Source: Oscillatoria sp. FACHB-1407 (GTDB lineage Bacteria > Cyanobacteriota > Cyanobacteriia > Elainellales > Elainellaceae). Taken from it: a stretch of DNA of 64,000 nt. Of the stretch, positions 3,244 through 29,205 are shown piece after piece. Numbering within the stretch: the stretch's first letter is position 1; the number at the start of each line of letters is the position of its first letter. The notes under the pieces are model-generated. The model saw nothing but the letters and a program-made list of their open reading frames with translations, was not told the origin of the DNA and did not search any database. Made by a program: the position numbers and the translations under genes. The stretch is taken from positions 1-64,000 of the forward strand of contig NZ_JACJSA010000017.1 of assembly GCF_014697545.1 (NCBI RefSeq), read 5' to 3'.

Positions 3244-3879
3244 CTACTTTGTTCCGTAGAGGCGATCGCCCGCATCTCCCAATCCTGGAATAATGTAGCC
3301 GTGTTTATCTAGATAATGATCAATTGAAGCGGTATATACGGGTACTTCGGGGTGCTGTTCGTGAAAATGCTTTAACCCTTCCGGGGCTGCTAATAAGCAC
3401 ACGAATTTGATGGACAAAGGATTAGATTCTTTGAGGCGATCGACCGCAGCGATCGCAGAGTTTCCGGTTGCCAACATGGGATCAACAATTAACATATCGC
3501 GTTGTTCTACATCGATTGGCAATTTCAAGTAATATTCAACAGCAGTTAAAGTAATGGGTTCTCGATATAAGCCAATATGCCCGACTTTTGCATTTGGAAT
3601 TAATTCCAACATGCCATCTAAAAGACCCTGGCCAGCCCGCATGATGGATACAATCACCATGCTTTTATCTGCTGCCAGGACGGGAGCCTCCATCTCTGTT
3701 AATGGTGTTTGAATTGTTTCATATTTGAGGGGTAAATCGCGTGTTACTTCATATGCCAAGAGCATTGCAATTTCCTTCAGTAACCGCCGAAAATCTTGCG
3801 TGTGAGTTTGCTTTTGGCGCATGAGCGTTAGCTTGTGCTGCACCAAAGGGTGGTTAATGACAATTACCTCTGCTGCCAT
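3244..3879 (-). CDS. upp: Uracil phosphoribosyltransferase
   Basis: A 211-residue type I phosphoribosyltransferase that makes UMP and pyrophosphate from uracil and PRPP. The PRPP-binding signature is [17 protein letters not shown], the flexible loop region is [15 protein letters not shown], and the uracil-specific tail is [17 protein letters not shown]. The length is normal for the family. It is divergent from the Urc1-type gene across 257 bp. In organisms with the URC route, conversion of uracil to UMP by this enzyme is the first step of degradation, so here it may serve catabolism as well as salvage. A terminator follows immediately. Confidence 0.95.
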
Positions 3880-4136
3880 TGATATCAGCTCAATTTATCT
3901 AAAGTAGTAAAAAATAGATGACATATTCTATAGGTGAAAATCAAAATAAGCAAGCAGTCTATGACCCCTTTTCTTTAGTTTTTTGCAAGGGATTGAGAGG
4001 TCATATTTTCTCACTTTAACTGTCGCCTTAATTGTCACCGCTTAATTGTCACTAATTGTGTAAACGAATAACAATTACAAAGGTCTTGAGTAGTAGAATA
4101 CTGTACCATCAGTATGCAGGGTGCAACGTTATTCAT

Positions 4137-5396
4137 ATGACCGCAAATCAGCCAAAACCAAGATCGAGGCATATTATCTTAACGTCCCATCAAAATAGTG
4201 CTGGTGCAAAGGTGCCACCTATTGTGTGGGGAGCCGCTAGCCCTCGCGATCGCGGTCCCATTATCAGCTCTGTCAGGAGTGTTGCTGGTCGCAATGTCAT
4301 TGGCACTCATGGCGGTTCTTATAGCGTTTATCGGGCATTGGCAGTCGCGAGCGGAGTGTTAGATCCCGATCATCGGGCTGACTTAACGAATACTTCGCCG
4401 ATTGTCCATATTGGACCCCATCCTACCTGGGGCGACCCTGACAAAATCGTTTCCTTAGACCCGTTTGGGGCGATCGCCGGAGAGGTGTTTGCTGCTCTTT
4501 ATCCCAGCGATTACGACATTCGTCCTACGATTGCGGTGACAAAAGCGCACATCACTATCCCGGAGTTGAAGGATGAAATCGCGGCAGGGCGGTTAAAGGT
4601 CGATGGTAAGTTGCTGAAACCCGATGGCAGTCTACTCGTTACCAAGGCTGCGATCGATCCCGTGTGGTATTTGCCAGGTATTGCTAAACGCCTGAATGTA
4701 GATGAATGGGAACTGCGGCGTATCCTGTTTCAACAAACTGGCGGAATGTTTCCTGAGTTGGTTACGCGCCCTGATTTACAGGTCTTTTTACCGCCGATTG
4801 GAGGGACAACGGTTTACATCATTGGTGATGTGGAGACGATCACTGATCCCACAAAACCCCTCGCGGTGCGGGTACATGATGAGTGCAACGGATCGGACGT
4901 GTTTGGTTCTGATATCTGTACCTGTCGCCCCTATCTGGTGCATGGCATTGAGGTGTGCATTCAAACTGCTCAAGCTGGGGGTGCGGGCGTCATTATCTAC
5001 TGCCGCAAAGAGGGGCGGGCGTTGGGCGAGGTCACTAAGTTTTTGGTGTACAACGCTCGGAAGCGTCAGGAAGGGGGCGATCGCGCTGATGCCTATTTTA
5101 TCCGTACCGAGTGTGTCGCGGGCGTGCAGGATATGCGCTTCCAGGAGTTGATGCCAGATGTGTTGCACTGGCTGGGCATCACGAAGATTGACCAACTTGT
5201 CTCGATGAGCAACATGAAGTACAACGCGATTACTCATGCAGGCATCGAAGTGGTGCAGCGGATTCCGATTCCGCCAGAGTTTATTCCGGCGGATGCTCAG
5301 GTGGAGATTGAAGCCAAGAAAGCGGCTGGCTATTACTCCGACAATGGCGTTTTAGAGCAAGATTTGCTGGCGCAGGTGAAGGGACGGGATTATTAG
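4137..5396 (+). CDS. GTP cyclohydrolase II-like protein of the URC uracil-degradation pathway (Urc1 type)
   Basis: A 419-residue protein. The C-terminal half is GTP-cyclohydrolase II: the zinc ligands appear as C-x10-C-x-C in ECNGSDVFGSDICTC, and the catalytic Arg region as CRKEGRALG. Unlike riboflavin RibA it has a roughly 190-residue N-terminal extension (WGAASPRDRGP, GTHGGSYSVYRAL, PHPTWGDPDKIVSLDPFG) and no RibB domain, the layout of the Urc1 family. I used the ATG at 4137; an upstream TTG at 4056 is less likely. The neighbours upp and a DUF1688 gene are the classic URC companions. By family knowledge Urc1 is required for uracil breakdown; its exact reaction is less certain than RibA's. 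A role in riboflavin synthesis is the alternative. Confidence 0.85.
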   Translation: MTANQPKPRSRHIILTSHQNSAGAKVPPIVWGAASPRDRGPIISSVRSVAGRNVIGTHGGSYSVYRALAVASGVLDPDHRADLTNTSPIVHIGPHPTWGDPDKIVSLDPFGAIAGEVFAALYPSDYDIRPTIAVTKAHITIPELKDEIAAGRLKVDGKLLKPDGSLLVTKAAIDPVWYLPGIAKRLNVDEWELRRILFQQTGGMFPELVTRPDLQVFLPPIGGTTVYIIGDVETITDPTKPLAVRVHDECNGSDVFGSDICTCRPYLVHGIEVCIQTAQAGGAGVIIYCRKEGRALGEVTKFLVYNARKRQEGGDRADAYFIRTECVAGVQDMRFQELMPDVLHWLGITKIDQLVSMSNMKYNAITHAGIEVVQRIPIPPEFIPADAQVEIEAKKAAGYYSDNGVLEQDLLAQVKGRDY

Positions 5397-5471
5397 AAAT
5401 AGGGAGTAGGGAGTGGGGAGTAGGTTTTGGGGTAAAGCTCCTTTTATCCTTTAGCCCTTATCCTTTAGCCT
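5397..5471. repeat. Heptamer (STRR) repeat between convergent genes
   Basis: Degenerate tandem heptamers, GGAGTAG then TTATCCTTTAGCC types, fill the 75 bp between the stops of the Urc1- and Urc4-type genes. The same heptamers recur at most junctions up to 17 kb. Confidence 0.7.
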
Positions 5472-6728
5472 TTAAAACACTGTTCCGTCGCTCTGAATCT
5501 GGATGGGGGGAGTGCCTCCCGATCGCTTCTCAGCGGCGATCGCCCGTCCTGCTGCCCAGGTGCCGCCCTCTAGCACTTTGACCAGGGGAAGTTCTTGGGG
5601 AGTCAGGTTGAGGGTTTGGCGAATGGTGTTGGCGATCGCATCCAGCAATACGACAGTCAGTGCTCGCCACTCGACAATCACCTCTGAACTGGGGAGGTGT
5701 GGTTGTGTGGTCACGTTGGGGTGTTTTGCCTGGATCAAACCCATGTCAAAACACAGTCCACCGTTGCGATATTCGGCTAATCCGGTGAGTTGATCCAATC
5801 CGGTGATCTCGATGCCCAACTCCTGCAAGGGTTCCAGGAGTGAATAGGTCAGCCATTGAGACAGTTTGTGAAAAGGGACAAGGTTTGAGCCGAGAGCCGC
5901 TTGGGGCAGGGCTGAATGTGCCCAAACGTCCCCTAAATTGACTCCAGCGATCGCCACTCGACCTGCCCAGATTTCACTCAATCCCTGCAACACGGCTGCA
6001 AACACCTCGCTGGCAGCCAGTTTGTGTTGCTCAGTCCGTTGTGCTAGATAATCCACCAGATAACCGGGACGGGGATTAGTTTCACCAAAGAGTTGAGGAT
6101 GACTGTGGAGTGCTTGCCCCAGTTGTTGCAATAACGCTAATCGCCCCTCTAACCCCACTAAAGGATTCTCATCTGTGACTTGAAAGCCTTGAGCCAGAGT
6201 CGTTTCAGTGAGTTGTTGTAACCCGGTTGCATCGACCTGCAAGGGATGGTCTGGATGGCTGGAGAAGAGTCCCTGACAGAACATCTGAAAGCTGGCAACC
6301 GCTAACCCCTCCGATCGTCGAAATACTTGCCCGGAGTCTGCTTCGACGTATTGCCATACGGCTCCGGCTCCGGCATCGAGCAACACACTGACAATGGCCA
6401 GATCAAACTTGGCTCTGGCTTGCTCTAATGGGCTGAGAGAAGCCAACTGCTGCTGAAGCTGAACGACTCTCGCCACCCCACCCACATCAAAATGCCGCCA
6501 ACGGCTGTGAAACGGTACTTGCAGATCGGGGTAGTTGGCTTGCATCACCTGCAACACAAAGGCTGCGGTCGGTTCCAGTTGGCTCAGGTCACAGCGAAAA
6601 TGCTGCAACTGATCTTGACAAGCTAACTCAAACAACTGATCACAGCGATCGCGAATTGCTTGAGGTGAGCGAAGATAGGCGATCGCCTCTTGCTCCGCCT
6701 GAGACACACCCTCAAAATTGGCTACCAT
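5472..6728 (-). CDS. DUF1688 protein (Urc4 type), uracil degradation
   Basis: A 418-residue soluble protein with the DUF1688 landmarks: AIRDRCDQLFELA near the start, QHFRCDLSQL, VPFHSRWRHFDVGGV near residue 85, FDLAIVSVLLDAGAG near residue 125, PGYLVDYL, and AEYRNGGLCFDMGL followed by SSEVIVEWRALTV near the C-terminus. This family is Urc4, genetically required for the URC route in yeast and found beside Urc1 in bacteria; its biochemical reaction is not established to my knowledge. Its ATG directly abuts the stop of the preceding gene (TGAATG), suggesting translational coupling. It converges on the Urc1-type gene. Confidence 0.88.
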   Translation of the reverse strand: MVANFEGVSQAEQEAIAYLRSPQAIRDRCDQLFELACQDQLQHFRCDLSQLEPTAAFVLQVMQANYPDLQVPFHSRWRHFDVGGVARVVQLQQQLASLSPLEQARAKFDLAIVSVLLDAGAGAVWQYVEADSGQVFRRSEGLAVASFQMFCQGLFSSHPDHPLQVDATGLQQLTETTLAQGFQVTDENPLVGLEGRLALLQQLGQALHSHPQLFGETNPRPGYLVDYLAQRTEQHKLAASEVFAAVLQGLSEIWAGRVAIAGVNLGDVWAHSALPQAALGSNLVPFHKLSQWLTYSLLEPLQELGIEITGLDQLTGLAEYRNGGLCFDMGLIQAKHPNVTTQPHLPSSEVIVEWRALTVVLLDAIANTIRQTLNLTPQELPLVKVLEGGTWAAGRAIAAEKRSGGTPPIQIQSDGTVF

Positions 6729-7133
6729 TCACACTCTCATTCCCTTCTCGGTTTTTAGGGCAGCCGTGTAGGCTCTCCAACCGCCCCATTGCGTAATCTC
6801 TTGCTGATTTTCGCAGAGAAAGGGTTCACCCAACACCCCCAACACGGTTTCACCATCAATCAGGCGCACCTTACCAATGCAAAGACCGGGGGGTTCGCGC
6901 AGCAGAATACTGGAGATTCCCTCAGTGGGTACAGCCCACACCTCAACGGCGATCGCCCGTCCGCCGTGGGTTACGCGCAACATTGCCGGATGACAGTCAT
7001 TAATTGACCAAAGGCGATAGTTGGGTTCTGTCAACGTTTCGCGGAGAAAAGTTGCACCCGCATTCAACAGGTTTTGGTTCAGTGCCAGCCCCCGCATCAA
7101 GGTGCCGTTCACTGCCAGACTAATTGCTTCCAT
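6729..7133 (-). CDS. Allophanate hydrolase C-terminal-domain-like protein (AtzF-C type)
   Basis: A 134-residue protein resembling the small C-terminal domain of allophanate hydrolase, which acts on N-carboxy-type intermediates: LAVNGTLMRG at the start, FLRETLTEPNYRLWSI, IAVEVWAVPTEGI, a Gly-rich IGKVRLIDGETVLGVLGEPF, and ITQWGGWRAYTAAL at the end. The amidase (Ser-Ser-Lys) domain is missing, so this is a stand-alone domain. It is translationally coupled to the DUF1688 gene and 32 bp downstream of a cysteine hydrolase. Its place in a uracil-to-urea type pathway fits handling of urea or allophanate-like nitrogen, but the stand-alone activity is an inference. Confidence 0.7.
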   Translation of the reverse strand: MEAISLAVNGTLMRGLALNQNLLNAGATFLRETLTEPNYRLWSINDCHPAMLRVTHGGRAIAVEVWAVPTEGISSILLREPPGLCIGKVRLIDGETVLGVLGEPFLCENQQEITQWGGWRAYTAALKTEKGMRV

Positions 7134-7165
7134 GCCGAAGCTTCACTCCTCACTCAATATCGTTT

Positions 7166-7861
7166 CTAAACGGCGATCGCAGGTTGAGTTGCTAACTCCA
7201 ACGCCTCTATCACAGCCGCTGCCGGAGCCGTCCAGCCAACGATGCCGCCCTGTGCCCGCACCATTTCTAAAGTCGATTGCTTAAACTCCGGAAAGTAACT
7301 CTCGGTACAGTCCTCCACCATCAGACACTCATAGCCGCGATCGTTTGCCTCTCGCATGGTCGTCTGGACACACACTTCTGTCGTTACTCCAGTGACCAGC
7401 AGATGGGTGATGCCCTTCTCCTTCAGCAGTGTCTCTAATGGTGTGGCATAAAACGCGCCTTTACCGGGTTTGAGAATCACCGTCTCATTTTGCAATGGGG
7501 CTAACTCTGGAATGATGCCATTGCCGGGTTCGTCCATAACTAGAATCCGCCCCATTGGTCCCTCATCCCCAATCTTGAGGGAACCCTTGCCACGATTGAG
7601 TTTTGAGGGAGGACAATCGGACAGATCAGGCTTGTGACACTCAATCGTGTGAAAAACAGGGAGTCCCTTTGCCCGAAAGGTTTCTAACAACTGCTTCAGC
7701 GTGGGGACGATCGCCTGTAGTCGCAACACATCATTTCCTAACGCATCGCCAAAGCCACCCGGCTCCATGAAATCGCGTTGCATATCGATAATAATTAATG
7801 CCAAAGAATGTAAGTTCTGAGGCAATTCGTAATCGTAAGGTTGAGCAGGAATAGAAGACAT
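7166..7861 (-). CDS. Isochorismatase-family cysteine hydrolase, biuret-hydrolase-like
   Basis: A 231-residue cysteine amidohydrolase. The family triad is visible as Asp26 in [10 protein letters not shown], Lys134 in [12 protein letters not shown] and Cys164 in [11 protein letters not shown]. The KPGKG(A/S)FYAT form of the lysine loop is closer to biuret hydrolase than to ureidoacrylate hydrolase RutB, as I remember these families. It would cleave a C-N bond in a small ureide or amide, releasing ammonia. It lies 32 bp upstream of the AtzF-C-like gene in the same direction, and a paralogue sits at 10127-10816. The exact substrate is not determinable here. Confidence 0.8.
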
Positions 7862-7930
7862 AGGGAAAAAAGGATAAAGGATGAAGGATAAGGGATAAAA
7901 AGGGAAGAATGAAGAAAAATCGTTAAGGCA
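7862..7930. repeat. Heptamer (STRR) repeat, AAGGATA/AAGGATG class
   Basis: Tandem degenerate heptamers such as AAGGATAAAGGATGAAGGAT lie directly upstream of the cysteine hydrolase start codon. Confidence 0.75.
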
Positions 7931-8008
7931 TCAGGGATAGAGGGAAGAATGAACTATTAGAACGCTTAAATTTGGGTTAGAGAATATGTTGCCTAAGAGG
8001 AATTCAAT

Positions 8009-8368
8009 GTGAGGAGAGATTTGAATCAGAGAACTAAACAATTTGCATTGCAAATCATTAAACTCTATCAATCTCTACCTAAATCCACGGTGGCTCAAAT
8101 CATCGGGAATCAAGTTCTAAGAAGTGGTACATCTGTTGGAGAACATTATCGAGAAGCCAATCGGAGCCGCTCTAATGCCGAACTCATCAGCAAAATAGAG
8201 GTTGGTCTTCAAGAGCTAGAGGAGACAGTTTATTGGCTTGAATTACTCGTAGAATCCAATACGATTCAATCAATTCAAATTAACGCGATTCTAGGGGAAG
8301 CAAACGAATTAAATGCGATTCTCACTGCTTGCGTTAAAACAGCAAAAACTCGAAAGATTGACCATTAG
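8009..8368 (+). CDS. Four-helix-bundle protein (23S rRNA intervening-sequence family)
   Basis: A 119-residue, all-helical protein of the S23/IVP-like family: QRTKQFALQIIKLYQSLP, a central VAQIIGNQVLRSGTSVGEHYREA, SNAELISKIEVGLQELEETVYWLELL, and an LGEANELNAILTACVKTAK tail. The start is GTG at 8009, chosen because ATG at 8007 runs straight into TGA; an AGAGGA motif lies 7-8 nt upstream. The family was first seen inside 23S rRNA insertions but often stands free, with unknown function. It is on the opposite strand and splits the minus-strand uptake/catabolic cluster, so it is probably a later insertion rather than part of that pathway. Confidence 0.85.
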   Translation: MRRDLNQRTKQFALQIIKLYQSLPKSTVAQIIGNQVLRSGTSVGEHYREANRSRSNAELISKIEVGLQELEETVYWLELLVESNTIQSIQINAILGEANELNAILTACVKTAKTRKIDH

Positions 8369-8420
8369 AAGTACTGAGCTTTTACTTTTATCCTTCATCC
8401 TTTAGCCTTTATCCTTCCTT

Positions 8421-9983
8421 CTAATGTCCTGCCATGCTGTGACCGATCGCCACAAAGTCGGCTTCACCAATGGGGCTTTCGTAGACGAATTCACCACCGC
8501 TGATGACCACAATGCGATCGCTCAGTTTGAGCAATTCGTCCAGGTCTTCGCTCACCAGTAACACGGCAACACCGCGATTTCGAGCATCGACAATTTGACC
8601 GTGAATGAAATCAACGGCGGCAAAGTCCAGACCGAAGCAGGGGTTCGCGGCAATCAGCAGGCGAATGTGATCCTCTGACAGTTCGCGAGCGAGAACGGCG
8701 CGTTGTACATTGCCCCCAGAGAGGTTGCTGATGGGGGTTTCGTGGGATGGGGTTTTGACGGAGAACTGAGCGATCAGGGTCTGTGCCATCTGGCGAATCG
8801 CTGCGAGAATCAGGAATACTCCTTTCGCTTGAGGGGGGCGATCGAACGTCCGCAATGCCATATTTTCGGCGACGCTCATGTGCGGCACACAGGCGTTACG
8901 AAGGGGTTCCTCTGGCAGGGAGAACACCCGATGCTTATACATTTCAGCCCGTGTTGCGCCATAGATTTCGCCATTGACGATCACCTGCCCTGACGTGGCT
9001 TCGCGTTGACCTGCCAACACTTCTACTAATTCCCGTTGACCGTTGCCAGAGATGCCTGCAATCCCGACGATCTCACCTGCGTGGACGGTTAAAGATACAC
9101 CTTTGACTGCCTCAATCCCATTGTCCTTATTGGCGTGAATTTCTTTGATTTGCAGAACAGGCACGGCTTCCGGATGCACCACTTTCTCAACGGGTTTTGG
9201 TTCTTTCTTCTCACCCATCATCATCTCTGCCATGTCAGACACGGTGAGGTTTTTGACCAACCCATGTCCGGCAAATTTGCCCTTGCGGAGTACCGTGATC
9301 TCATCGGCAAATGCCATGACTTCCCGGAATTTGTGGGAGATCATCAACACGCTCAACTGTCCTGCTGTGACTTGTTCGCGGAGTAAGCCCAGCACTTCAT
9401 CTGCCTCACCGGGGGTCAAGACGGAGGTTGGCTCATCCAAAATCAAAATGCGGCTGTGGAGATAGAGTTGCTTGAGGATCTCCAGCTTTTGCTTTTGTCC
9501 GGCGGCAAGTTGGGCGATCGGTGTTTCCAGAGGCACCTGAAACGGTGAGGTTTCCATAAATGCCCGTAACCCTTCCATTTCCTTTTTCCAGTTGATCAGC
9601 TTGGTGTTGTCAAACCGGGAGAGGACGAGGTTTTCTGCCACGGTCATCGCAGGCACAGAGGTGAAGTGCTGATACACCATGCCAATGCCAAACTTGTGAG
9701 CATCTTTGGGATTGGGAATGGCTACCTTTTTGCCGTCGATATAAATATCACCAGAGGTAGGCGTATAGAAGCCCATGATGCACTTCACTAGAGTGCTTTT
9801 TCCGGCTCCGTTCTCTCCTAAAAGAGCATGAAAACTCCCCGGTTTAATGGTCATTGAAACGTTATCCAGTGCCACCAATGAGCCAAATTGTTTGGTCATG
9901 TTGACGACTTGCAATTCAGCAGGTTTGAGGGCTGTCGTTGTCGAGGGAGCTTGAGACTTTCGGGTATCAATGATTTCAGTCAT
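8421..9983 (-). CDS. ABC transporter ATP-binding protein, nucleoside/BMP class (two ABC domains)
   Basis: A 520-residue double ATPase. The first domain has Walker A GENGAGKST, signature LAAGQKQKLEILKQL and Walker B ILILDEPTSVLTP. The second has the degenerate GISGNGQRELVEVL loop usual for the second domain of this class and signature LSGGNVQRAVLAREL, with DEP replaced by ANPCFGLD. This is the RbsA/YufO-type architecture that energises sugar and nucleoside importers. I start at the ATG at 9983; the extra nine upstream codons read through heptamer repeats. It matches the two permeases (12248-14501) and the BMP lipoprotein (14633-15817), from which it is separated by two hydrolase genes. Confidence 0.9.
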   Translation of the reverse strand: MTEIIDTRKSQAPSTTTALKPAELQVVNMTKQFGSLVALDNVSMTIKPGSFHALLGENGAGKSTLVKCIMGFYTPTSGDIYIDGKKVAIPNPKDAHKFGIGMVYQHFTSVPAMTVAENLVLSRFDNTKLINWKKEMEGLRAFMETSPFQVPLETPIAQLAAGQKQKLEILKQLYLHSRILILDEPTSVLTPGEADEVLGLLREQVTAGQLSVLMISHKFREVMAFADEITVLRKGKFAGHGLVKNLTVSDMAEMMMGEKKEPKPVEKVVHPEAVPVLQIKEIHANKDNGIEAVKGVSLTVHAGEIVGIAGISGNGQRELVEVLAGQREATSGQVIVNGEIYGATRAEMYKHRVFSLPEEPLRNACVPHMSVAENMALRTFDRPPQAKGVFLILAAIRQMAQTLIAQFSVKTPSHETPISNLSGGNVQRAVLARELSEDHIRLLIAANPCFGLDFAAVDFIHGQIVDARNRGVAVLLVSEDLDELLKLSDRIVVISGGEFVYESPIGEADFVAIGHSMAGH

Positions 9984-10136
9984 AGGAGGGAAAGGATAAA
10001 GGATGAACAATAAAGGATGAAAAAACGAAGAAGGATGAGGGATGAAAGAAGAAGGATGAAAAAAAGAGTTGAGATAGTAGGGATGGGTTTCAAGGTTTAT
10101 AAATTTCCGTCTTTAGCCTTCATCCTTTAGCCTTTT
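9984..10136. repeat. Heptamer (STRR) repeat between ABC ATPase and cysteine hydrolase
   Basis: Degenerate AAGGATG/AAGGATA heptamers on one side (9984-10065) and their complement (CTTCATCCTTTAGCC) on the other (near 10115-10133). The two arms are complementary and could pair in the transcript. Confidence 0.7.
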
Positions 10137-10816
10137 GGCTGTATGGCTTCTAGTAAGGCAGTTGAGTCGGACACGGCTCCAAACACGCCGCCTTGCATTT
10201 TGATCATGTTGAGGGCAGCGAGATGGTTGCCATAGTCAGTGGCTCCGGTGCAGTCGGAGAGTAGTAGGCATTCGTAGCCGCGATCGTTGGCATCGCGCAT
10301 GGTGGTGTGGACACAAACATCGGTGGTGATGCCAGTGAGGATGACGTTTTGAATGCCCTTGAGCTTGAGCAGCATGTCTAAGTCAGTGGCATAAAAGGAA
10401 CCCTTGCCCGGTTTGTCGATGATGGGTTCACCGGGGAGGGGAGCTAGCTCAGGAATAATCTCCCAACCGGGTTCGCCGCGCACCAGAATTTTGCCACAGG
10501 GACCCAGATCACCGATGCCTGCTCCAATCTGGCGCGATCGCCACCGTTTGTTCTCCGGCAAATCTGACAGGTCAGGGCGATGTCCCTCACGAGTATGGAT
10601 GATGGTGTAACCTCCCTCTCGCATGACACTCAAAAGCCGCTGAAGTGGGGCGATCGGGGCACGAGTCAGTGAGAGGTCATAGCCCATCTGATCGACATAG
10701 CCTCCCTGACCGCAAAAATCGGTTTGCATGTCGATGATGATCAGTGCCGTATTTTCGGGGCGCAAATCTCCGTTGTAGGGATATTTGTAGGGTTCGGCGT
10801 TGACGTAGAGGGGCAT
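10127..10816 (-). CDS. Isochorismatase-family cysteine hydrolase, biuret-hydrolase-like (second copy)
   Basis: A 229-residue paralogue of the protein at 7166-7861. The triad is Asp29 in [10 protein letters not shown], Lys138 in [12 protein letters not shown] and Cys168 in [11 protein letters not shown]. It shares the ANDRGYECL segment and overall length with the first copy but differs through most of the N-terminal half, so this is an old duplication or two separate recruitments, not a recent tandem copy. It sits between the formamidase and the ABC ATPase, all reading leftward. Two such enzymes in one cluster suggest two related ureide or amide substrates in successive steps. Confidence 0.82.
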
Positions 10817-11100
10817 AGGAAGAGGGAAAAAGGATAAATGATGAAGGATAAAGGATAAAAGAAGAGAGAAAAAAGAAAAAGGATAAAAAAAGAGGAAGGA
10901 GAGAAGAAGGATGAAGGCTAAAGGATGAAATGGCGGGGATCAAGGTTTAACGATGTCTCCTGACCACTGACTCCTGACCACTAACTATTGACCATTGACT
11001 CCTGACCACTAACTATTGACCATTGACCACTGACTCCTGACCACTAACGCTTGCAGAACTTCAACTTTTATCCTTTATCCTTCAACTTTTATCCTTTCAA
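10817..11100. repeat. Two classes of heptamer repeats flanking the formamidase 3' end
   Basis: 10817-10930 carries AAGGATA/AAGGATG-class heptamers. 10956-11047 carries a different class, CTGACCA/TTGACCA (complement TGGTCAA/TGGTCAG), the same class that fills 63640-63890. 11061-11098 returns to TTTATCC-type heptamers. No gene lies in this stretch; the ORF at 10677-10943 is a translation of the repeats plus a shadow of the hydrolase. Confidence 0.75.
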
Positions 11101-12108
11101 AATGGCGGTTAACTCCTCTCCGTGATAAAGCCGGGTGGGAGCAGGAAATCCACACGAGGTGCCGTCGGTGTAAACGACTTCATCTTCCCAGGGGAGGCGA
11201 TAGCTGCCGTTCACCATGTCTTGCATGTAGGTATAGGGGCAATCTTGAGCACCGCCTTTAACCGCGACATAGCCCCGATGTCCAAATTGATAAATGTTGT
11301 TTTCAACGCTCCAGTGCTTGCGGGCTTCGCGCACGAGGTCGGGTCGCAGTTCCGCTGTGATGATCTCGTCGGGACGGTGACTGCCCATGACTAGAGGCGT
11401 GCCGTCAAAGTTGACGAACATTCCCTCACCCATGGAGTCAAAGGTGCCATCACTGCCGCACATGCATACGGAAGCGGTATACATCAGGTTGCAGAAGGCA
11501 TTTGCCTGATTGGTGATTTGCCAGGTGTGACGAATGGGAGCGGTATAGCCTGCGGTGCGGATCATGATCTCTGCTCCTTTGTAGGCACACTCGCGAGCCA
11601 TTTCTGGGAACATGCCGTCGTGGCAAATGATCAGGGCGATCGCACTGCCATTGGGTCCTTCACAGACAGGAATCCCAATATTCCCCGGTTCCCACGGTTC
11701 TACAGGCACCCAGGGATGGAGTTTGCGGTAGTAGAGCCGCATTTCCCCTTTGTCGTCGAGAATAATGCCGCTGTTGTAGGGGTTGCCGTTGGGGTTGTAT
11801 TCCATGATGGAAAAGCAACCCCAAATTTGGTTATCACGGCAGGCTTGGCTGAATGCTGCCATCTCTGGCCCGTCCAACTTGCACATAATCTCTGGGTTGG
11901 TATCCATCGACAACCCGTGCAGCGCATATTCTGGAAACACCACCAGATCCATCGTTGGCATATTTCGGCGAGCTTTCCCGACCATATTGCAGATGCGTTG
12001 GGTCTGGCCAGCTAAATCGTCGGGAGTCACAACGTTAGGAAGTTGCAGTTGTACCATCCCTAGCACAACACCGTTTGGAGATTTGTTGAGTCCACCAAGT
12101 CCGCTCAT
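11089..12108 (-). CDS. amiF: Formamidase (nitrilase superfamily)
   Basis: A 339-residue nitrilase-superfamily amidase very like the AmiF/AmiE type of Helicobacter. The Glu-Lys-Cys triad is Glu60 in VVFPEYALHG, Lys129 in YYRKLHPW and Cys162 in IICHDGM. Further landmarks are CFSIMEYNPNGNPYN, EPWEPGNIGIPVCEGPNGS, ENNIYQFGHRGYVA and KLPWED-like YRLPWEDEV. AmiF hydrolyses formamide to formate and ammonia. The close paralogue AmiE takes short aliphatic amides and cannot be fully excluded. It lies between a BMP-transporter permease and a cysteine hydrolase, so the imported compound or its breakdown products probably yield formamide or a similar amide. Confidence 0.85.
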   Translation of the reverse strand: MSGLGGLNKSPNGVVLGMVQLQLPNVVTPDDLAGQTQRICNMVGKARRNMPTMDLVVFPEYALHGLSMDTNPEIMCKLDGPEMAAFSQACRDNQIWGCFSIMEYNPNGNPYNSGIILDDKGEMRLYYRKLHPWVPVEPWEPGNIGIPVCEGPNGSAIALIICHDGMFPEMARECAYKGAEIMIRTAGYTAPIRHTWQITNQANAFCNLMYTASVCMCGSDGTFDSMGEGMFVNFDGTPLVMGSHRPDEIITAELRPDLVREARKHWSVENNIYQFGHRGYVAVKGGAQDCPYTYMQDMVNGSYRLPWEDEVVYTDGTSCGFPAPTRLYHGEELTAILKG

Positions 12109-12247
12109 AGCAAAGAAGAAAGGATAAACGATGAACGATAAAGGATGAGAAGAAAGGATAAATGATGAACGATAAAGGATAAAAGTGTAGAGAGCAGAGG
12201 AATGTTCGTTCCTTTATCCTTCAGCTTTTATCCTTTATCCTTCCTTC
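12109..12247. repeat. Heptamer (STRR) repeat upstream of formamidase
   Basis: AAGGATAAACGATGAACGATAAAGGATG-type heptamers (12119-12182) followed by the complementary TTTATCCTTCAGC-type run (12215-12247). The two arms are complementary and could form a hairpin between the permease stop and formamidase start. Confidence 0.75.
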
Positions 12248-13183
12248 CTAGGTGTCTGTCCCCAAGGCTCCGGGGGCACCCGTTAGTGTCTTTTTCGGTG
12301 AGCAGGTGAGAATCATAATCAGAAGAGTCAACACATAGGGAGCAGCGTTAAACAGGTAATAGCCTTCCTTGATGCCGACGGATTGCAGCGCAGGTCCTAG
12401 AGCTTGTGCGCCACCGAAGAGCAGCGATGCCCAGAGACACTGAATGGGGTTCCACCGGGCAAAAATCACCAGGGCAACCGCCATCAATCCCTGACCGCTA
12501 GAGATGCGCTCTGTCCACACACCGGGATAGTAGAGCGAGAGGGATGCACCACCAATTCCAGCTAAAAAGCTGCCTGCGATCACACTCAACATCCGCACCT
12601 GGAAAATGGAAACGCCCATTGCTCTTGCGGCTTCGGGGCTGTCGCCCACTGCCCGGATGAACAGACCCCAGCGGGTGGATTGGAAGAACCACTGCATGAT
12701 GGGGGCGATCGCCAACCCCAGCAAAAATAAAGGACTGATCTGCAACGCCGCTTGTAGAGCCGGAGCTAACCCATCACCGCCCAGATTTATCGTCGGCAAC
12801 TGTGGTGCGGAGGGTTGAATGAACGGTTTTCCTAAGAAGAAAGCAATGCCACTCCCAAAAATGATCATGGCAATGCCGACTGCCACATCGTTAACCCTGG
12901 GTTGCTGTGAGAGCCAACCATGAATTGCGCCTAAGAAGCAACCTGCAATCCCGGCAACCAGCACCCCCAACCAGGGAGAACCTGTGAGGTAGGAGATGCC
13001 ATAGGCACTCATGGCTCCCGTGAGCAAAACCCCCTCCAGACCGAGGTTGATTTTGCCGCTTTTTTCAGTCAGGCACTCGCCCAAACTGACAAACAAGAAT
13101 GGAGTGCCACCGCGCATGGTTCCGGCGGCGATCGCCAACGGCACACCCCACCATCCCAATGCTTCTGCTGCTTCTGCTGTCAT
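12248..13183 (-). CDS. ABC transporter permease, nucleoside/BMP class (second permease)
   Basis: A 311-residue integral membrane protein with about eight hydrophobic segments. LTEKSGKINLGLEGVLLTGA near residue 38 is the typical loop of the YufQ/RbsC-like permease family, and GFSPEAARAMG-like GDSPEAARAMGVS near residue 180 is the coupling-helix region contacting the ATPase. It pairs with the longer permease at 13389-14501 and the double ATPase at 8421-9983 to form an importer in the inner membrane. The 205-bp gap to the first permease is unusually wide for such a pair. Confidence 0.88.
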   Translation of the reverse strand: MTAEAAEALGWWGVPLAIAAGTMRGGTPFLFVSLGECLTEKSGKINLGLEGVLLTGAMSAYGISYLTGSPWLGVLVAGIAGCFLGAIHGWLSQQPRVNDVAVGIAMIIFGSGIAFFLGKPFIQPSAPQLPTINLGGDGLAPALQAALQISPLFLLGLAIAPIMQWFFQSTRWGLFIRAVGDSPEAARAMGVSIFQVRMLSVIAGSFLAGIGGASLSLYYPGVWTERISSGQGLMAVALVIFARWNPIQCLWASLLFGGAQALGPALQSVGIKEGYYLFNAAPYVLTLLIMILTCSPKKTLTGAPGALGTDT

Positions 13184-13388
13184 CGCACTAAATTTCCTAC
13201 TAGATTGCTTGAGAAGATGATTGGCACTAGTAAAGCGTTTGGTTCAAAGTTTCGATGGTGTTCCAAACCTGCTAATAGCCTCCGTAAGAACCTCCTGTAG
13301 TCCTTCTGGGCAAGGGGGACGGCGACAGCCGGGGGCAGTAGTAACAGATCTGAAGCACGACTAGATAGTTGAACCGAATGCTTCACTC

Positions 13389-14501
13389 CTACTGGACGAC
13401 TACAGGCTCTTGACCGGGTGTCGGGGGTGGAGATGGCGGAGCCACAATGGTTGGCTTTTCCTTAAAGAAGGCAAACCGACCATACAAGGAGTCGCTGTAC
13501 ATTACGACCAGGAAGACCAAGCCCTGGAACACCAGCACCGTTGCATCCGGCAGATTGTGCGATCGCTGCAAGATACCACCACTTGCCAAAATTCCACCCA
13601 GGAGCAGAGATACGGCTGACGCTGCCAGGGGGTTATGTCGTGCCACAAAGGCAACTAAAATGCCACCGTAGCCATAACCCACGTTCAACGACTCATTCGC
13701 TGCACCCTGCACAGCGGCAATTTCGACCATGCCTGCTAACCCTGCACAGGAGCCAGCCAGGAAGCAAATGATGATCGTCAATTGCCCCACAGGTAGCCCT
13801 GCAATTCGAGCGGCTCGAATGTTGCCTCCAGCGGTACGAGCCGCAAACCCAAAGGTTGTGCGTTGAATCAACACATAGGCAATAACACACGCAACCAACC
13901 CATAAATCAAACCCCAATGAACTCGCGTTCCGGGGATGCTGCCCATCATGTCTGCCTCAGGCAGCGGGAATGTGGATGGCTTGTTGAGCGAACTGGGGTC
14001 ACGCCAGGGACCACCTACCAGATGGTTTAACAGGGCGATCGCCACATAGTTCAACAACAAACTGCTGATTGTCTCATTTACCGCTCGATAGTGACGCAAT
14101 GCACCTGCGATCGCGATCCAGACACCGCCCGCAATCATCCCGGCGATCGCCATACCCAGCTGTACGCCGATTCCAGGTAAGCTATCCGCGAGAGACAGAC
14201 CAACCGCGATCGCCGCTAACCCTCCAACGACCAACGCCCCCTCATTTCCGATAATCACCAGTCCCAATCGAGCCGGCAGTGCGGTACACAACGCACACAA
14301 CATCAAAGGAGCCGCTCGAATCAGACTATTCTGCAAGGTGCTCCAACTGCCAAAGGCTGCCTTCCAGATCGAGGCATACACCGCAAAAGGATTCGCCCCC
14401 GCCAGAGCACAAAACACACCAAACAAAATCAACGAAAAGATCAATGCCGAAACTGGCAATACGATCGACTCTAATGTGCGCCGCCAGGCATAGCTGTTCA
14501 T
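13389..14501 (-). CDS. ABC transporter permease, nucleoside/BMP class (first permease)
   Basis: A 370-residue membrane protein of the YufP-type permease family: NSLIRAAPLMLCALCTALPARLGLV-type segment near residues 65-90 (start NSLIRAAPLML), GNEGALVVGGLAA, a loop NETISSLLLNYVAIALLNHLVGGPWRDP, AARIAGLPVGQ as coupling motif and GYGYGGILVAFVARHNPLA. I start at the ATG at 14501; the 31 upstream codons in the open frame translate heptamer repeats into a Phe/Pro/Ser-rich peptide and are not real protein. It lies 131 bp downstream of the substrate-binding lipoprotein gene. Confidence 0.88.
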   Translation of the reverse strand: MNSYAWRRTLESIVLPVSALIFSLILFGVFCALAGANPFAVYASIWKAAFGSWSTLQNSLIRAAPLMLCALCTALPARLGLVIIGNEGALVVGGLAAIAVGLSLADSLPGIGVQLGMAIAGMIAGGVWIAIAGALRHYRAVNETISSLLLNYVAIALLNHLVGGPWRDPSSLNKPSTFPLPEADMMGSIPGTRVHWGLIYGLVACVIAYVLIQRTTFGFAARTAGGNIRAARIAGLPVGQLTIIICFLAGSCAGLAGMVEIAAVQGAANESLNVGYGYGGILVAFVARHNPLAASAVSLLLGGILASGGILQRSHNLPDATVLVFQGLVFLVVMYSDSLYGRFAFFKEKPTIVAPPSPPPTPGQEPVVVQ

Positions 14502-14632
14502 AGGAAAGGATGAAGGATAAGGGCTAAAGGACGAATAAAAAGGGTGAAGGATAAGGGCTAAAGGATGGAATGTAGACAAAGGTTGCAGAGCCACTTTTAT
14601 CCTTCATCCTTCAGCCTTTCTCCCTACTTCAC
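14502..14632. repeat. Heptamer (STRR) repeat between BMP lipoprotein and permease genes
   Basis: AAGGATGAAGGATAAGGGCTAAAGG-type heptamers (14505-14567) and a complementary TTTATCCTTCATCCTTCAGCC run (14596-14620), which could pair as a long imperfect hairpin in the transcript. Confidence 0.75.
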
Positions 14633-15817
14633 TTAGCTTCCAACCGAGCCAATTACCCCTTCAATCAGGTAGTTCATTCCTTCCAATTTGGGGTCTTGCT
14701 GCTTCAACTCTTCTCCAGCGGCAATCACGACGTTGCCCTGGTTGTCCTTCAATTCGCCTTTGTAGATCACCAGGCTGCCGTCCATCAGTTGGGCTTTGGC
14801 GGCTTCGCCTGCTGCCTTGGCTTCTTCCGTCACCGCAGGACCGTAATCGGAGATCTTACAGAATCCATCCTTCAAGCCACCCCGTAGCAGGTGAGGGATG
14901 CTGCCATCCATCAGGCTCTTACCGGAGTTGATGTCCTCTGCCAGTTGAGTGTAGATGTTCACCCAATCCCACTCGGCTCCAGTGAGGTAACCCTGGGGCG
15001 AGAGTTGGATCTGGTTCGCGTGATAGCCAGAGCTAAAGATGCCGCGTTTCTCTGCGGTTTCCATCACAACCTTGGGACTGTCTACGTGGCAGGTCAGCAC
15101 ATCAATGCCCTGGTCTGCCATGCTGTTTGCAGCTTCTGCTTCTTTGATTGGTTCTGCCCAGTTGCCCGTGAACACTACTTGAGTTGTGATTGCAGGGTTC
15201 ACACTGCGAGCACCCAGCGTAAAGCTGTTGATATTCCGCAACACCTGAGGAATTGGTTTCGCCCCAATGAAGCCCAACTTGCCGGACTTGGACATGGTTC
15301 CTGCAACAACGCCTGCAACGTATTGTGCTTCGTCAATGTAGCCGTAATAGCTGCCCACATTCTTGGGATGGGTTCCTTCGACGTACAAACCACCACAGTG
15401 GAAGAACTGTACATCTGGATATTCCTCCGCCATCTTGAGAATGTGCGGGTCAAAATAGCCAAACGACGTGGGGAATAAAACTTTTGCACCATCGATGTCG
15501 ATCATGCTCCGCATCGATTCGGCTACAGCGGTTGTCTCAGGAACGTTCGCTTCTTCGACTAACTTGACCCAACCCAACTTGCTTGACATCGCGGCAGCAC
15601 CCTCAGCGTGTGCCTGGTTGTAGCCGTAGTCATCCTTAGGACCAACGTAGATAAAACCAATCGTCAGCCCTTCACCCCCACCAGCAGCATCCCCTGAGGC
15701 AGCAGGTTCACCGCTACACGCAGTCCCTAGCTTTGCTGTAACCCCAAATGCAGTTGTGGCTAACAGACCACGAATCACTTGACGACGAGATAAACCTAAA
15801 AACCGATTACTGCTCAC
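14633..15817 (-). CDS. BMP family ABC transporter substrate-binding lipoprotein (nucleoside class)
   Basis: A 394-residue periplasmic binding protein of the BMP/PnrA/Med family. The N-terminus has a twin-arginine-like SRRQVIRG, a hydrophobic stretch and a lipobox LGTAC with the lipidated Cys at 34. Then a Gly/Ala-rich linker and the binding fold: TIGFIYVGPKDDYGYNQAH, IDGAKVLFPTSFGYFDP, GYIDEAQYVAGVVAG, KLGFIGAKPIPQVLRNINSF. It is the first gene of the leftward transporter and catabolic cluster. Family members bind nucleosides in several bacteria; the gene context suggests a pyrimidine, nucleobase or ureide, which is an inference. Confidence 0.88.
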   Translation of the reverse strand: MSSNRFLGLSRRQVIRGLLATTAFGVTAKLGTACSGEPAASGDAAGGGEGLTIGFIYVGPKDDYGYNQAHAEGAAAMSSKLGWVKLVEEANVPETTAVAESMRSMIDIDGAKVLFPTSFGYFDPHILKMAEEYPDVQFFHCGGLYVEGTHPKNVGSYYGYIDEAQYVAGVVAGTMSKSGKLGFIGAKPIPQVLRNINSFTLGARSVNPAITTQVVFTGNWAEPIKEAEAANSMADQGIDVLTCHVDSPKVVMETAEKRGIFSSGYHANQIQLSPQGYLTGAEWDWVNIYTQLAEDINSGKSLMDGSIPHLLRGGLKDGFCKISDYGPAVTEEAKAAGEAAKAQLMDGSLVIYKGELKDNQGNVVIAAGEELKQQDPKLEGMNYLIEGVIGSVGS

Positions 15818-28122: not shown

Positions 28123-29205
28123 TCATGCCAGGTAGCCTTCGATCAGTAAGTCAGAGCCGATCGCCCTCCAGCTAACTCGTTCCAGGGGGAGTGCTGCCGT
28201 CATTTCGGTGAACCCCAGATCGCCTACCGGCGAGGGGGCTGTTGCTCCACCGATAATTTTGGGGGCGATAAAGGCAAAGATTTTTTGTACTGCCCCTTCA
28301 GCGATCGCCCGTGCTGCCAGGGTTCCACCGCATTCCCACAGGACGGATAAAAAGCCTCGTTCGTTGAGATGGGCGATCGCGGCGGTTGGGGTAAGAGCAG
28401 GTAACTCCAGGACTTCTACTCCCTGCTGTCTGAGGGCTTGCTGTTGCTCTGGGTTGACTCCCGTCTCCGTCAATACCAAGGTTGGTACATCAGCGGTTTG
28501 CCAGAGTTGAGCCTGACTTGGCAAATCCAGGGTACGGCTCATAACGACTCGTAACGGGTTGTGGTCATGCACTCCATGACTGGTCAGTAGTGGATTGTCG
28601 CGCCGCACTGTATTGCCACCAATAATCACAGCATCACAACCAGCACGTAGCTGGTGGACAAAGGAGCGGGCTGTCGGACTAGTTACCCAGGCACTATGCC
28701 CTGTTGTGGTGGCGATTTTGCCATCTAGCGTCATGGCGTACTTCAAAATGCCCAGGGGGCGTTGATGCCGTATGCGGTAGACAAACGGCTCATTGAGAGC
28801 CTGGCAAGCCGCTTCTTCAACCCCAACAGTGACTTCAATTCCCGCTTGTTGCAGGCGCGAAAGTCCTGTTCCCAAAACCTGGGGATTGGGGTCTACCATG
28901 CCTATAACCACTCTAGCGATCGCCGCTTGAATAATAGCCTCGGTGCAGGGTGGAGTGCGTCCGTAGTGGTTGCAAGGCTCTAAGTTGACATAAAGCGTGG
29001 CTCCACGGGCGCGATCGCCCGCTGCTTTGAGAGCAAACACCTCAGCGTGAGGCTGTCCTGCTCCTGGGTGAAATCCTTCACCGACAATTTCCCCCTCTTG
29101 AACAACGACAGACCCCACTAATGGATTTGGGGCGGTTTTGCCGAGTGCCTGTTTGGCAAGCTCCAGGCACCGACGCATCATCCATTCATCAACCCCATCA
29201 GTCAT
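28123..29205 (-). CDS. ribD: Bifunctional riboflavin biosynthesis deaminase/reductase
   Basis: A 360-residue two-domain enzyme that deaminates and then reduces the pyrimidine intermediate of riboflavin synthesis. The deaminase domain shows the zinc site HAEVFALKAAG plus EPCNHYGRTPPCTEAII. The reductase domain begins near residue 150 (PLGILKYAMTLDGKIATTTGHS), with GCDAVIIGGNTVRRDNPLLT and VLWECGGTLAARAI. Its ATG overlaps the stop of the CAAD gene by 8 bp, so the two form an operon. Its presence means the GTP-cyclohydrolase-like gene at 4137 need not be the riboflavin enzyme. Confidence 0.95.
   Translation of the reverse strand: MTDGVDEWMMRRCLELAKQALGKTAPNPLVGSVVVQEGEIVGEGFHPGAGQPHAEVFALKAAGDRARGATLYVNLEPCNHYGRTPPCTEAIIQAAIARVVIGMVDPNPQVLGTGLSRLQQAGIEVTVGVEEAACQALNEPFVYRIRHQRPLGILKYAMTLDGKIATTTGHSAWVTSPTARSFVHQLRAGCDAVIIGGNTVRRDNPLLTSHGVHDHNPLRVVMSRTLDLPSQAQLWQTADVPTLVLTETGVNPEQQQALRQQGVEVLELPALTPTAAIAHLNERGFLSVLWECGGTLAARAIAEGAVQKIFAFIAPKIIGGATAPSPVGDLGFTEMTAALPLERVSWRAIGSDLLIEGYLA

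Follow-up and report, generated by a model that had tools for sequence, protein, structure and literature searches.

A run of genes at positions 3244-15817 of a contig from the cyanobacterium Oscillatoria sp. FACHB-1407 raises the question of whether adjacent genes for uracil breakdown and for the hydrolysis of biuret-like compounds form one pathway or several. The stretch analyzed, here called the window, comprises the first 64,000 nucleotides of NZ_JACJSA010000017.1; the genome (G000) amounts to 8.1 Mb in 66 contigs. From the letters alone, the original prediction described a single pyrimidine degradation cluster with its own BMP-class importer. All the genes it listed are present as intact open frames, and profile searches gave clear matches to the families it had guessed. 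Gene-order comparisons led us to reject the single-pathway reading. The locus is better explained as two adjoining nitrogen-salvage modules, one for uracil (module A) and one for triuret and biuret (module B), and we regard this explanation, with the proposals for URC4 and AHC that belong to it, as likely. Designations beginning with G, C, L and f are our handles for genomes, contigs, loci and families. The genes of the two modules are as follows.

3244-3879, minus strand: upp, uracil phosphoribosyltransferase (UPRT), module A; PF14681, 253 bits; TIGR01091 over cut-off
4137-5396, plus strand: URC1-type UTP cyclohydrolase, module A; GTP_CH_N and GTP_cyclohydro2; NF005536, 734 bits
5472-6728, minus strand: URC4 (DUF1688), proposed ribosylurea(-phosphate) N-glycosidase, module A; PF07958, 549 bits
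6729-7133, minus strand: AHC, stand-alone allophanate-hydrolase C-terminal domain protein, module B; PF21986 (AH_C), 138 bits; PDB 5c5z, 148 bits
7166-7861, minus strand: TrtA-type triuret hydrolase (isochorismatase-like), module B; 6xix, 292 bits
8421-9983, minus strand: twin ATPase of the BMP-class importer, module B; PF00005 in two stretches
10127-10816, minus strand: BiuH, biuret hydrolase (isochorismatase-like), module B; NF050097, 420 bits, cut-off 370
11089-12108, minus strand: formamidase, optional member of module B; NF009803, 580 bits (cut-off 406); 5g3o, 374 bits
12248-13183, minus strand: importer permease 2 (BPD_transp_2); PF02653, 137 bits
13389-14501, minus strand: importer permease 1 (BPD_transp_2); PF02653, 104 bits
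14633-15817, minus strand: Bmp-family substrate-binding protein, AtzT-like; PF02608, 141 bits; 6pi5, 221 bits; lipoprotein signal by eye

Module B corresponds to the triuret/biuret operons of Rhizobium and Herbaspirillum in its importer type, formamidase, BiuH, ATPase and TrtA. The operons on plasmids of Rhizobium leguminosarum and Peteryoungia are colinear with it, in the order BMP protein, two permeases, formamidase, BiuH, (atzD), ATPase, TrtA and a small gene, and a beta-proteobacterial operon from Ideonella is likewise colinear, with atzF. The window differs from them in its stand-alone AHC and in a genome without AtzF over the cut-off, while atzD and the cupin gene are outside the window operon. 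The importer is 55-88% identical to those of other cyanobacterial module B loci and 51-66% to those of Rhizobium, Peteryoungia and Ideonella; the ATPase shares 57% identity with that of the rhizobial operon. On these comparisons the importer is assigned to module B. All parts of a BMP-class importer are thus present, as had been noted from the sequence, while the proposed link to pyrimidines was not supported: the nearest solved relative of the binding protein, 6pi5 ('Atrazine periplasmic binding protein'), which we take to be AtzT, is not a demonstrated pyrimidine binder. In one genome (G403, L261:8259-10820) two tandem genes for BMP binding proteins lie within a single biuret operon.

Thirteen other cyanobacterial genomes also carry module B, whole or in part, around BiuH; in 12 of them BiuH is over the cut-off, and in one (G215) the copy is broken. 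Stop codons interrupt both BiuH and AHC in G215 (L209), as if the pathway were being lost as a unit. Within the stretches examined, no match to URC1 or URC4 was detected at the BiuH loci of these genomes or in the 18 cyanobacterial loci taken around BiuH-like genes. The window operon itself is interrupted between the ATPase and TrtA genes by an opposite-strand gene outside the pathway:

8009-8368, plus strand: 23S_rRNA_IVP (intervening-sequence protein) family gene; PF05635, 70 bits

Two biuret-hydrolase-like enzymes had been described in the window, and only the one at 10127 is a biuret hydrolase. This protein (401 bits to 6azo) carries the five BiuH counterparts named in PMC7948467 (Y, Y, S, D, T) and a V at the sixth position, in an alignment read by eye. 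The protein at 7166-7861 scores 292 bits to TrtA (6xix) and 210 to BiuH. It contains the catalytic Asp-Lys-Cys triad and all six residues (F35, N41, A134, E160, Y187, I205) that distinguish TrtA from BiuH according to the same article. By its sequence it is of the TrtA type and is predicted to hydrolyze triuret. A second BiuH-like hydrolase is encoded elsewhere in the genome (G000:C8:286303-286977, or L210:8304-8978); it is 65% identical to BiuH and scores 353 bits, against the cut-off of 370. Paralogs of 61-65% identity occur in G430, G439 and G525.

Pfam assigns the AHC protein (138 bits) to the same domain as the C-terminal part of AtzF. However, it lacks the amidase domain and reaches 106 bits with TIGR02713 (AtzF; cut-off 511), and no AtzF over that cut-off was found in G000. 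AH_C matches in cyanobacteria fall into bands of >150 bits (AtzF type), 127-143 bits (AHC type) and ~85-116 bits (a third type), with a few broken or partial sequences. In the phylum-level sample, 12 of the 13 genomes with BiuH have the AHC type, as does 1 of the remaining 372 (Fisher p 9e-21, 385 genomes); this test leaves out G215, the inclusion of which gives p 6e-20. Among 66 BiuH-positive cyanobacteria, 57 contain AHC only, five AtzF only, none both and four neither (Fisher p 1.4e-5). These genomes consist of 14 from the phylum-level sample (13 over the BiuH cut-off, and G215) and 52 chosen by hand from the 146 with close homologs described below; these 52 represent a range of families and are nearly all >95% complete. 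AtzF was searched with TIGR02713 in the 14 genomes. In the 52 it was assigned from AH_C matches >150 bits, and the four positive genomes were checked for a neighboring amidase, so that an AtzF amidase lacking AH_C would escape notice there. The five AtzF genomes span four families (f1, f14, f26 with two genera, and f54).

This mutual exclusion suggests that AHC probably stands in for AtzF. The C domain of allophanate hydrolase is a decarboxylase. Our best guess is that AHC perhaps turns allophanate into urea for urease, because AHC and AtzF exclude each other, allophanate decarboxylates spontaneously to urea (PMC6219798), and the allophanate hydrolase part of urea amidolyase works through sequential reactions of its N and C domains (PMC5770610). 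Urease was found in all 14 BiuH genomes tested for it.

Several observations weigh against this interpretation. The score bands, including 127-143 bits for AHC, were set after the scores had been seen, and the genomes are related, so that the Fisher values overstate their independence. The four BiuH genomes with neither gene include G215, in which both BiuH and AHC are broken, and G431, a single contig rated 100% complete. Conversely, G233 has AHC (128 bits, L256:6056-6436) without BiuH, and many AHC genes are not adjacent to BiuH. The histidine in the VGAHL segment of AtzF is absent from AHC, which has NGTLM, and the chemistry of AtzF may not be shared.

An alternative is that AHC accelerates the conversion of carboxybiuret, the product of TrtA, to biuret, and that allophanate goes to urea on its own. 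The spontaneous decarboxylation cited above speaks for this alternative, and so do a carboxybiuret half-life of ~20 min (PMC7948467), the position of AHC next to TrtA in the window, and the differences between stand-alone AHC and the AtzF C domain. However, AtzF, an allophanate enzyme, replaces AHC in the five genomes of four families, and at least two of these (G514 and G060) retain TrtA, which would leave a carboxybiuret role unfilled. We therefore consider a role in carboxybiuret breakdown unlikely, though a serious contender, and continue to favor an allophanate role for AHC.

The idea that AHC is a swap for the rhizobial cupin was rejected, since AHC and cupin genes coexist at five loci (L195, L197, L203, L208 and L262). 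The R. leguminosarum plasmid gene annotated as 'allophanate hydrolase' is itself a cupin. A second stand-alone AH_C type (~100 bits) is present in most BiuH genomes tested. In G000 it is encoded at G000:C2:609586-609972 (L257:5419-5988), next to an allantoate-amidohydrolase-type gene (443 bits, cut-off 399) and a GntR regulator. The AHC gene of G233 adjoins the genes of an ABC importer whose binding protein is NMT1/THI5-like.

To define module A, two sets of URC4 loci were compared with the window: the best 80 of 576 confirmed places from named genome records, and 32 other cyanobacterial URC4 regions. At least seven loci are common to both sets, which therefore do not amount to 112 genomes; many of the contigs end within 10 kb. 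The complete trio of URC1, URC4 and UPP is present at 61 of the 80 loci, with partial matches counted, and in 15 of the 32 regions, with URC1 nearby in 23 of the latter. The trio recognized in the original prediction is thus genuine, its three genes lying close together in the window. These are the same three enzymes as in the URC pathway of Lachancea kluyveri and the bacterial URC1-URC4-upp clusters. The window differs from those clusters in its rearranged order, with URC1 on the opposite strand, and this inverted order is shared by Kaiparowitsia (L143), where no biuret genes were found within 10 kb. It also differs from the URC pathway in that the genome offers urease rather than urea amidolyase and that URC4 comes after AHC.

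Could both modules nevertheless form one pyrimidine-degradation island, in which a pyrimidine enters through the importer and the work begun by URC1 and URC4 is completed by BiuH, TrtA, formamidase and AHC? All genes lie within 12.6 kb, and URC4 directly follows AHC with a gap of 0, which leaves room for a functional link between the modules and is a point against keeping them separate. A second such point is that URC4 and BiuH share genomes more often than expected by chance (8 of 13 BiuH genomes versus 33 of 386 overall, p 1e-6), in a sample holding many small-genome lineages with neither gene. In Azospirillum, too, URC genes have a BMP-class importer as neighbor, and 14 of the 80 and 2 of the 32 URC4 loci gave one or more permease matches. 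A BMP importer serving pyrimidine routes probably exists in nature, of another subfamily than that of the window: the window importer is 25-38% identical to the URC-adjacent ones (30-37% for Azospirillum). Furthermore, none of the 80 and none of the 32 other URC4 loci has BiuH, TrtA, AHC or formamidase within the stretches available, module B occurs without adjacent URC genes in cyanobacteria and rhizobia, and a distance of ~2.1 Mb separates the modules in G011, a member of the same family. Thus, a single island is improbable, and the assignment of the importer, BiuH, TrtA, formamidase and AHC to a pyrimidine route is not supported; these genes make up an operon of their own, with the gene order of the rhizobial ones. 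Because the modules occur apart in other genomes, they seem to have been joined locally in the window.

The fold of URC4 bears on the last step of module A. An AlphaFold2 model built on 42 aligned sequences (pLDDT 93.5) was compared with known structures using Foldseek, where chains of Qng1/DUF2419 took ranks 1-11 (E 1e-9 to 1e-7) and the next match had E 0.14. With VIA-align, the model superimposes on Qng1 with Z 27.2 and a root-mean-square deviation of 3.0 over 311 residues, whereas helix-hairpin-helix (HhH) DNA glycosylases, next in the ranking, reach Z 10.4 at most. When the URC4 profile was aligned with one of four Qng1 homologs, the match had E 5e-7 over 299 columns (hhalign probability 92%). 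In this profile alignment K288 of URC4 corresponds to Qng1 K199, and E319 to D231, an Asp to Glu replacement; both residues are invariant in 42 of 42 URC4 sequences. The segment VEWRALTV aligns with VELRAATI of Qng1 (ExRAxT motif). K199 and D231 are the presumed catalytic pair of Qng1, judging from the mutant PDB entries K199C and D231N.

The likeness to Qng1, a queuosine-5'-monophosphate N-glycosidase, thus covers the whole length of the fold, the positions of the lysine and the carboxylate, and the ExRAxT motif. It is tempered by an identity of ~18% and an hhalign probability of 92%, by the Glu in place of the acid Asp, and by the lack of a match to PF10343 (DUF2419) in URC4, whose sole Pfam match is PF07958, or elsewhere in G000. 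The contexts also differ, uracil for URC4 and tRNA-base salvage for Qng1. A direct URC4 profile search of PDB sequences gave no match, and a sequence search of PDB chains found no credible homolog (best E 0.77). The link to Qng1 therefore rests on structure and on pairwise profile comparison. In yeast, URC4 of L. kluyveri degrades ribosylurea to urea (PMC7530994). Given this result and the Qng1-type fold, cleavage of the N-glycosidic bond is the simplest mechanism, and URC4 is probably an N-glycosidase that releases urea from (phospho)ribosylurea; by analogy with Qng1, its substrate may carry a 5'-phosphate. In a limited literature collection, we found no publication linking Qng1 with URC4, urg3, DUF1688 or ribosylurea.

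A non-riboflavin role had been suggested for the gene at 4137-5396, and the closest structures agree with it. In a sequence search of PDB chains the protein scores 612 bits with 7ej3/7eev. Its model, of moderate confidence (pLDDT 76), aligns with 7eev ('Structure of UTP cyclohydrolase') at Z 46.0 over 386 residues with 58% identity, compared with Z 12 for the E. coli and H. pylori GTP cyclohydrolase II structures. Residues E249/C250, C261 and C263, which we take to be the zinc-site motif of GTP cyclohydrolase II, are invariant across 29 sequences. The name 'UTP cyclohydrolase' derives from the PDB entry titles and from the title of an article cited in PMC9499338. The proposed check for an ordinary RibA or RibBA came out the same way, with a true bifunctional RibBA found elsewhere in the genome (G000:C15; NF006806, 968 bits, cut-off 764). 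The ribD gene noted in the window was confirmed.

28123-29205, minus strand: ribD; RibD_C, 179 bits

That URC1 is an ordinary riboflavin enzyme, as its match to NF005536, a model named GTP cyclohydrolase II, might imply, is scarcely credible and was rejected in view of the structure match and the separate RibBA, which renders URC1 dispensable for riboflavin and reaches the ribA cut-off of 206 bits (250 bits) where URC1 does not (58 bits).

The intergenic region between the divergent upp and URC1 genes contains a possible regulatory site:

4093-4106: weak NtcA-like palindrome, GTAGAATACTGTAC

NtcA-type sites (GTAN8TAC) precede URC1 in 23 of 53 cyanobacterial loci with sufficient upstream sequence (8% expected, p 4e-12, a value overstated by the close relationship of most site-bearing loci); by name, these loci (within L118-L177) are mostly from Nostocales. 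Twenty of the 23 sites lie 133-155 bases upstream of URC1, and 11 loci show a -10-like box at 20-25 bases, which suggests that the URC operon of the site-bearing loci belongs to the nitrogen-control regulon. The window site lies at -44 from URC1, and a -10 box is missing from the expected distance. Upstream of BMP genes, GTAN8TAC was present in four of nine cases examined and absent in the window, and NtcA control of the window's module B was rejected on this ground.

In the resulting scheme for module A, uracil would be converted to UMP by UPRT and then presumably phosphorylated to UTP. URC1 would open the UTP ring so that a urea group stays attached to the ribose phosphate, and URC4 would cut the N-glycosidic bond to free urea, with a urease encoded elsewhere completing the route. 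Such nitrogen release is plausible because the genome encodes urease (alpha subunit at G000:C1); amidases are also present. In module B, the BMP-class importer would supply import, and TrtA would convert triuret to carboxybiuret, which would go on to biuret, and BiuH biuret to allophanate; the chemistry of both hydrolases is known from the literature. AHC, in place of the missing AtzF, would most likely decarboxylate allophanate to urea, which may feed the same urease as module A. A local rearrangement would have placed URC4 directly behind TrtA and AHC (gaps of 32 and 0 bases). As a tentative extension, somewhat more apt to fail than to hold in all its parts, many filamentous cyanobacteria would use an AtzF-free route in which AHC turns allophanate into urea, URC4 would be a Qng1-type N-glycosidase that releases urea from phosphoribosylurea, both routes would end at urease, and in this genome TrtA, AHC and URC4 would constitute one urea-generating transcription unit.

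The original observation of this gene assembly was right and its interpretation half right; what is new is the fold of URC4 and the mutual exclusion of AHC and AtzF. URC4 is still filed as DUF1688, of unknown function, and the N-glycosidase match with its conserved residues makes this step directly testable. The exclusion of AHC and AtzF indicates that allophanate can be handled in a step that does not need allophanate hydrolase. Triuret metabolism has been reported in 1-2% of recorded genomes, mostly plant-associated (PMC7948467), an article that mentions some phytoplankton and whose main text contains no word beginning with 'cyanobacter'. BiuH over the cut-off occurs in 13 of 386 genomes of the phylum-level sample, which holds many small-genome families, and a class-level sample of 373 Cyanobacteriia genomes, in which the family of the window (f1) is well represented, has close homologs (E <= 1e-75) in 146. 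The 146 genomes with BiuH homologs suggest that cyanobacteria draw nitrogen from urea oligomers, a source that has been overlooked.

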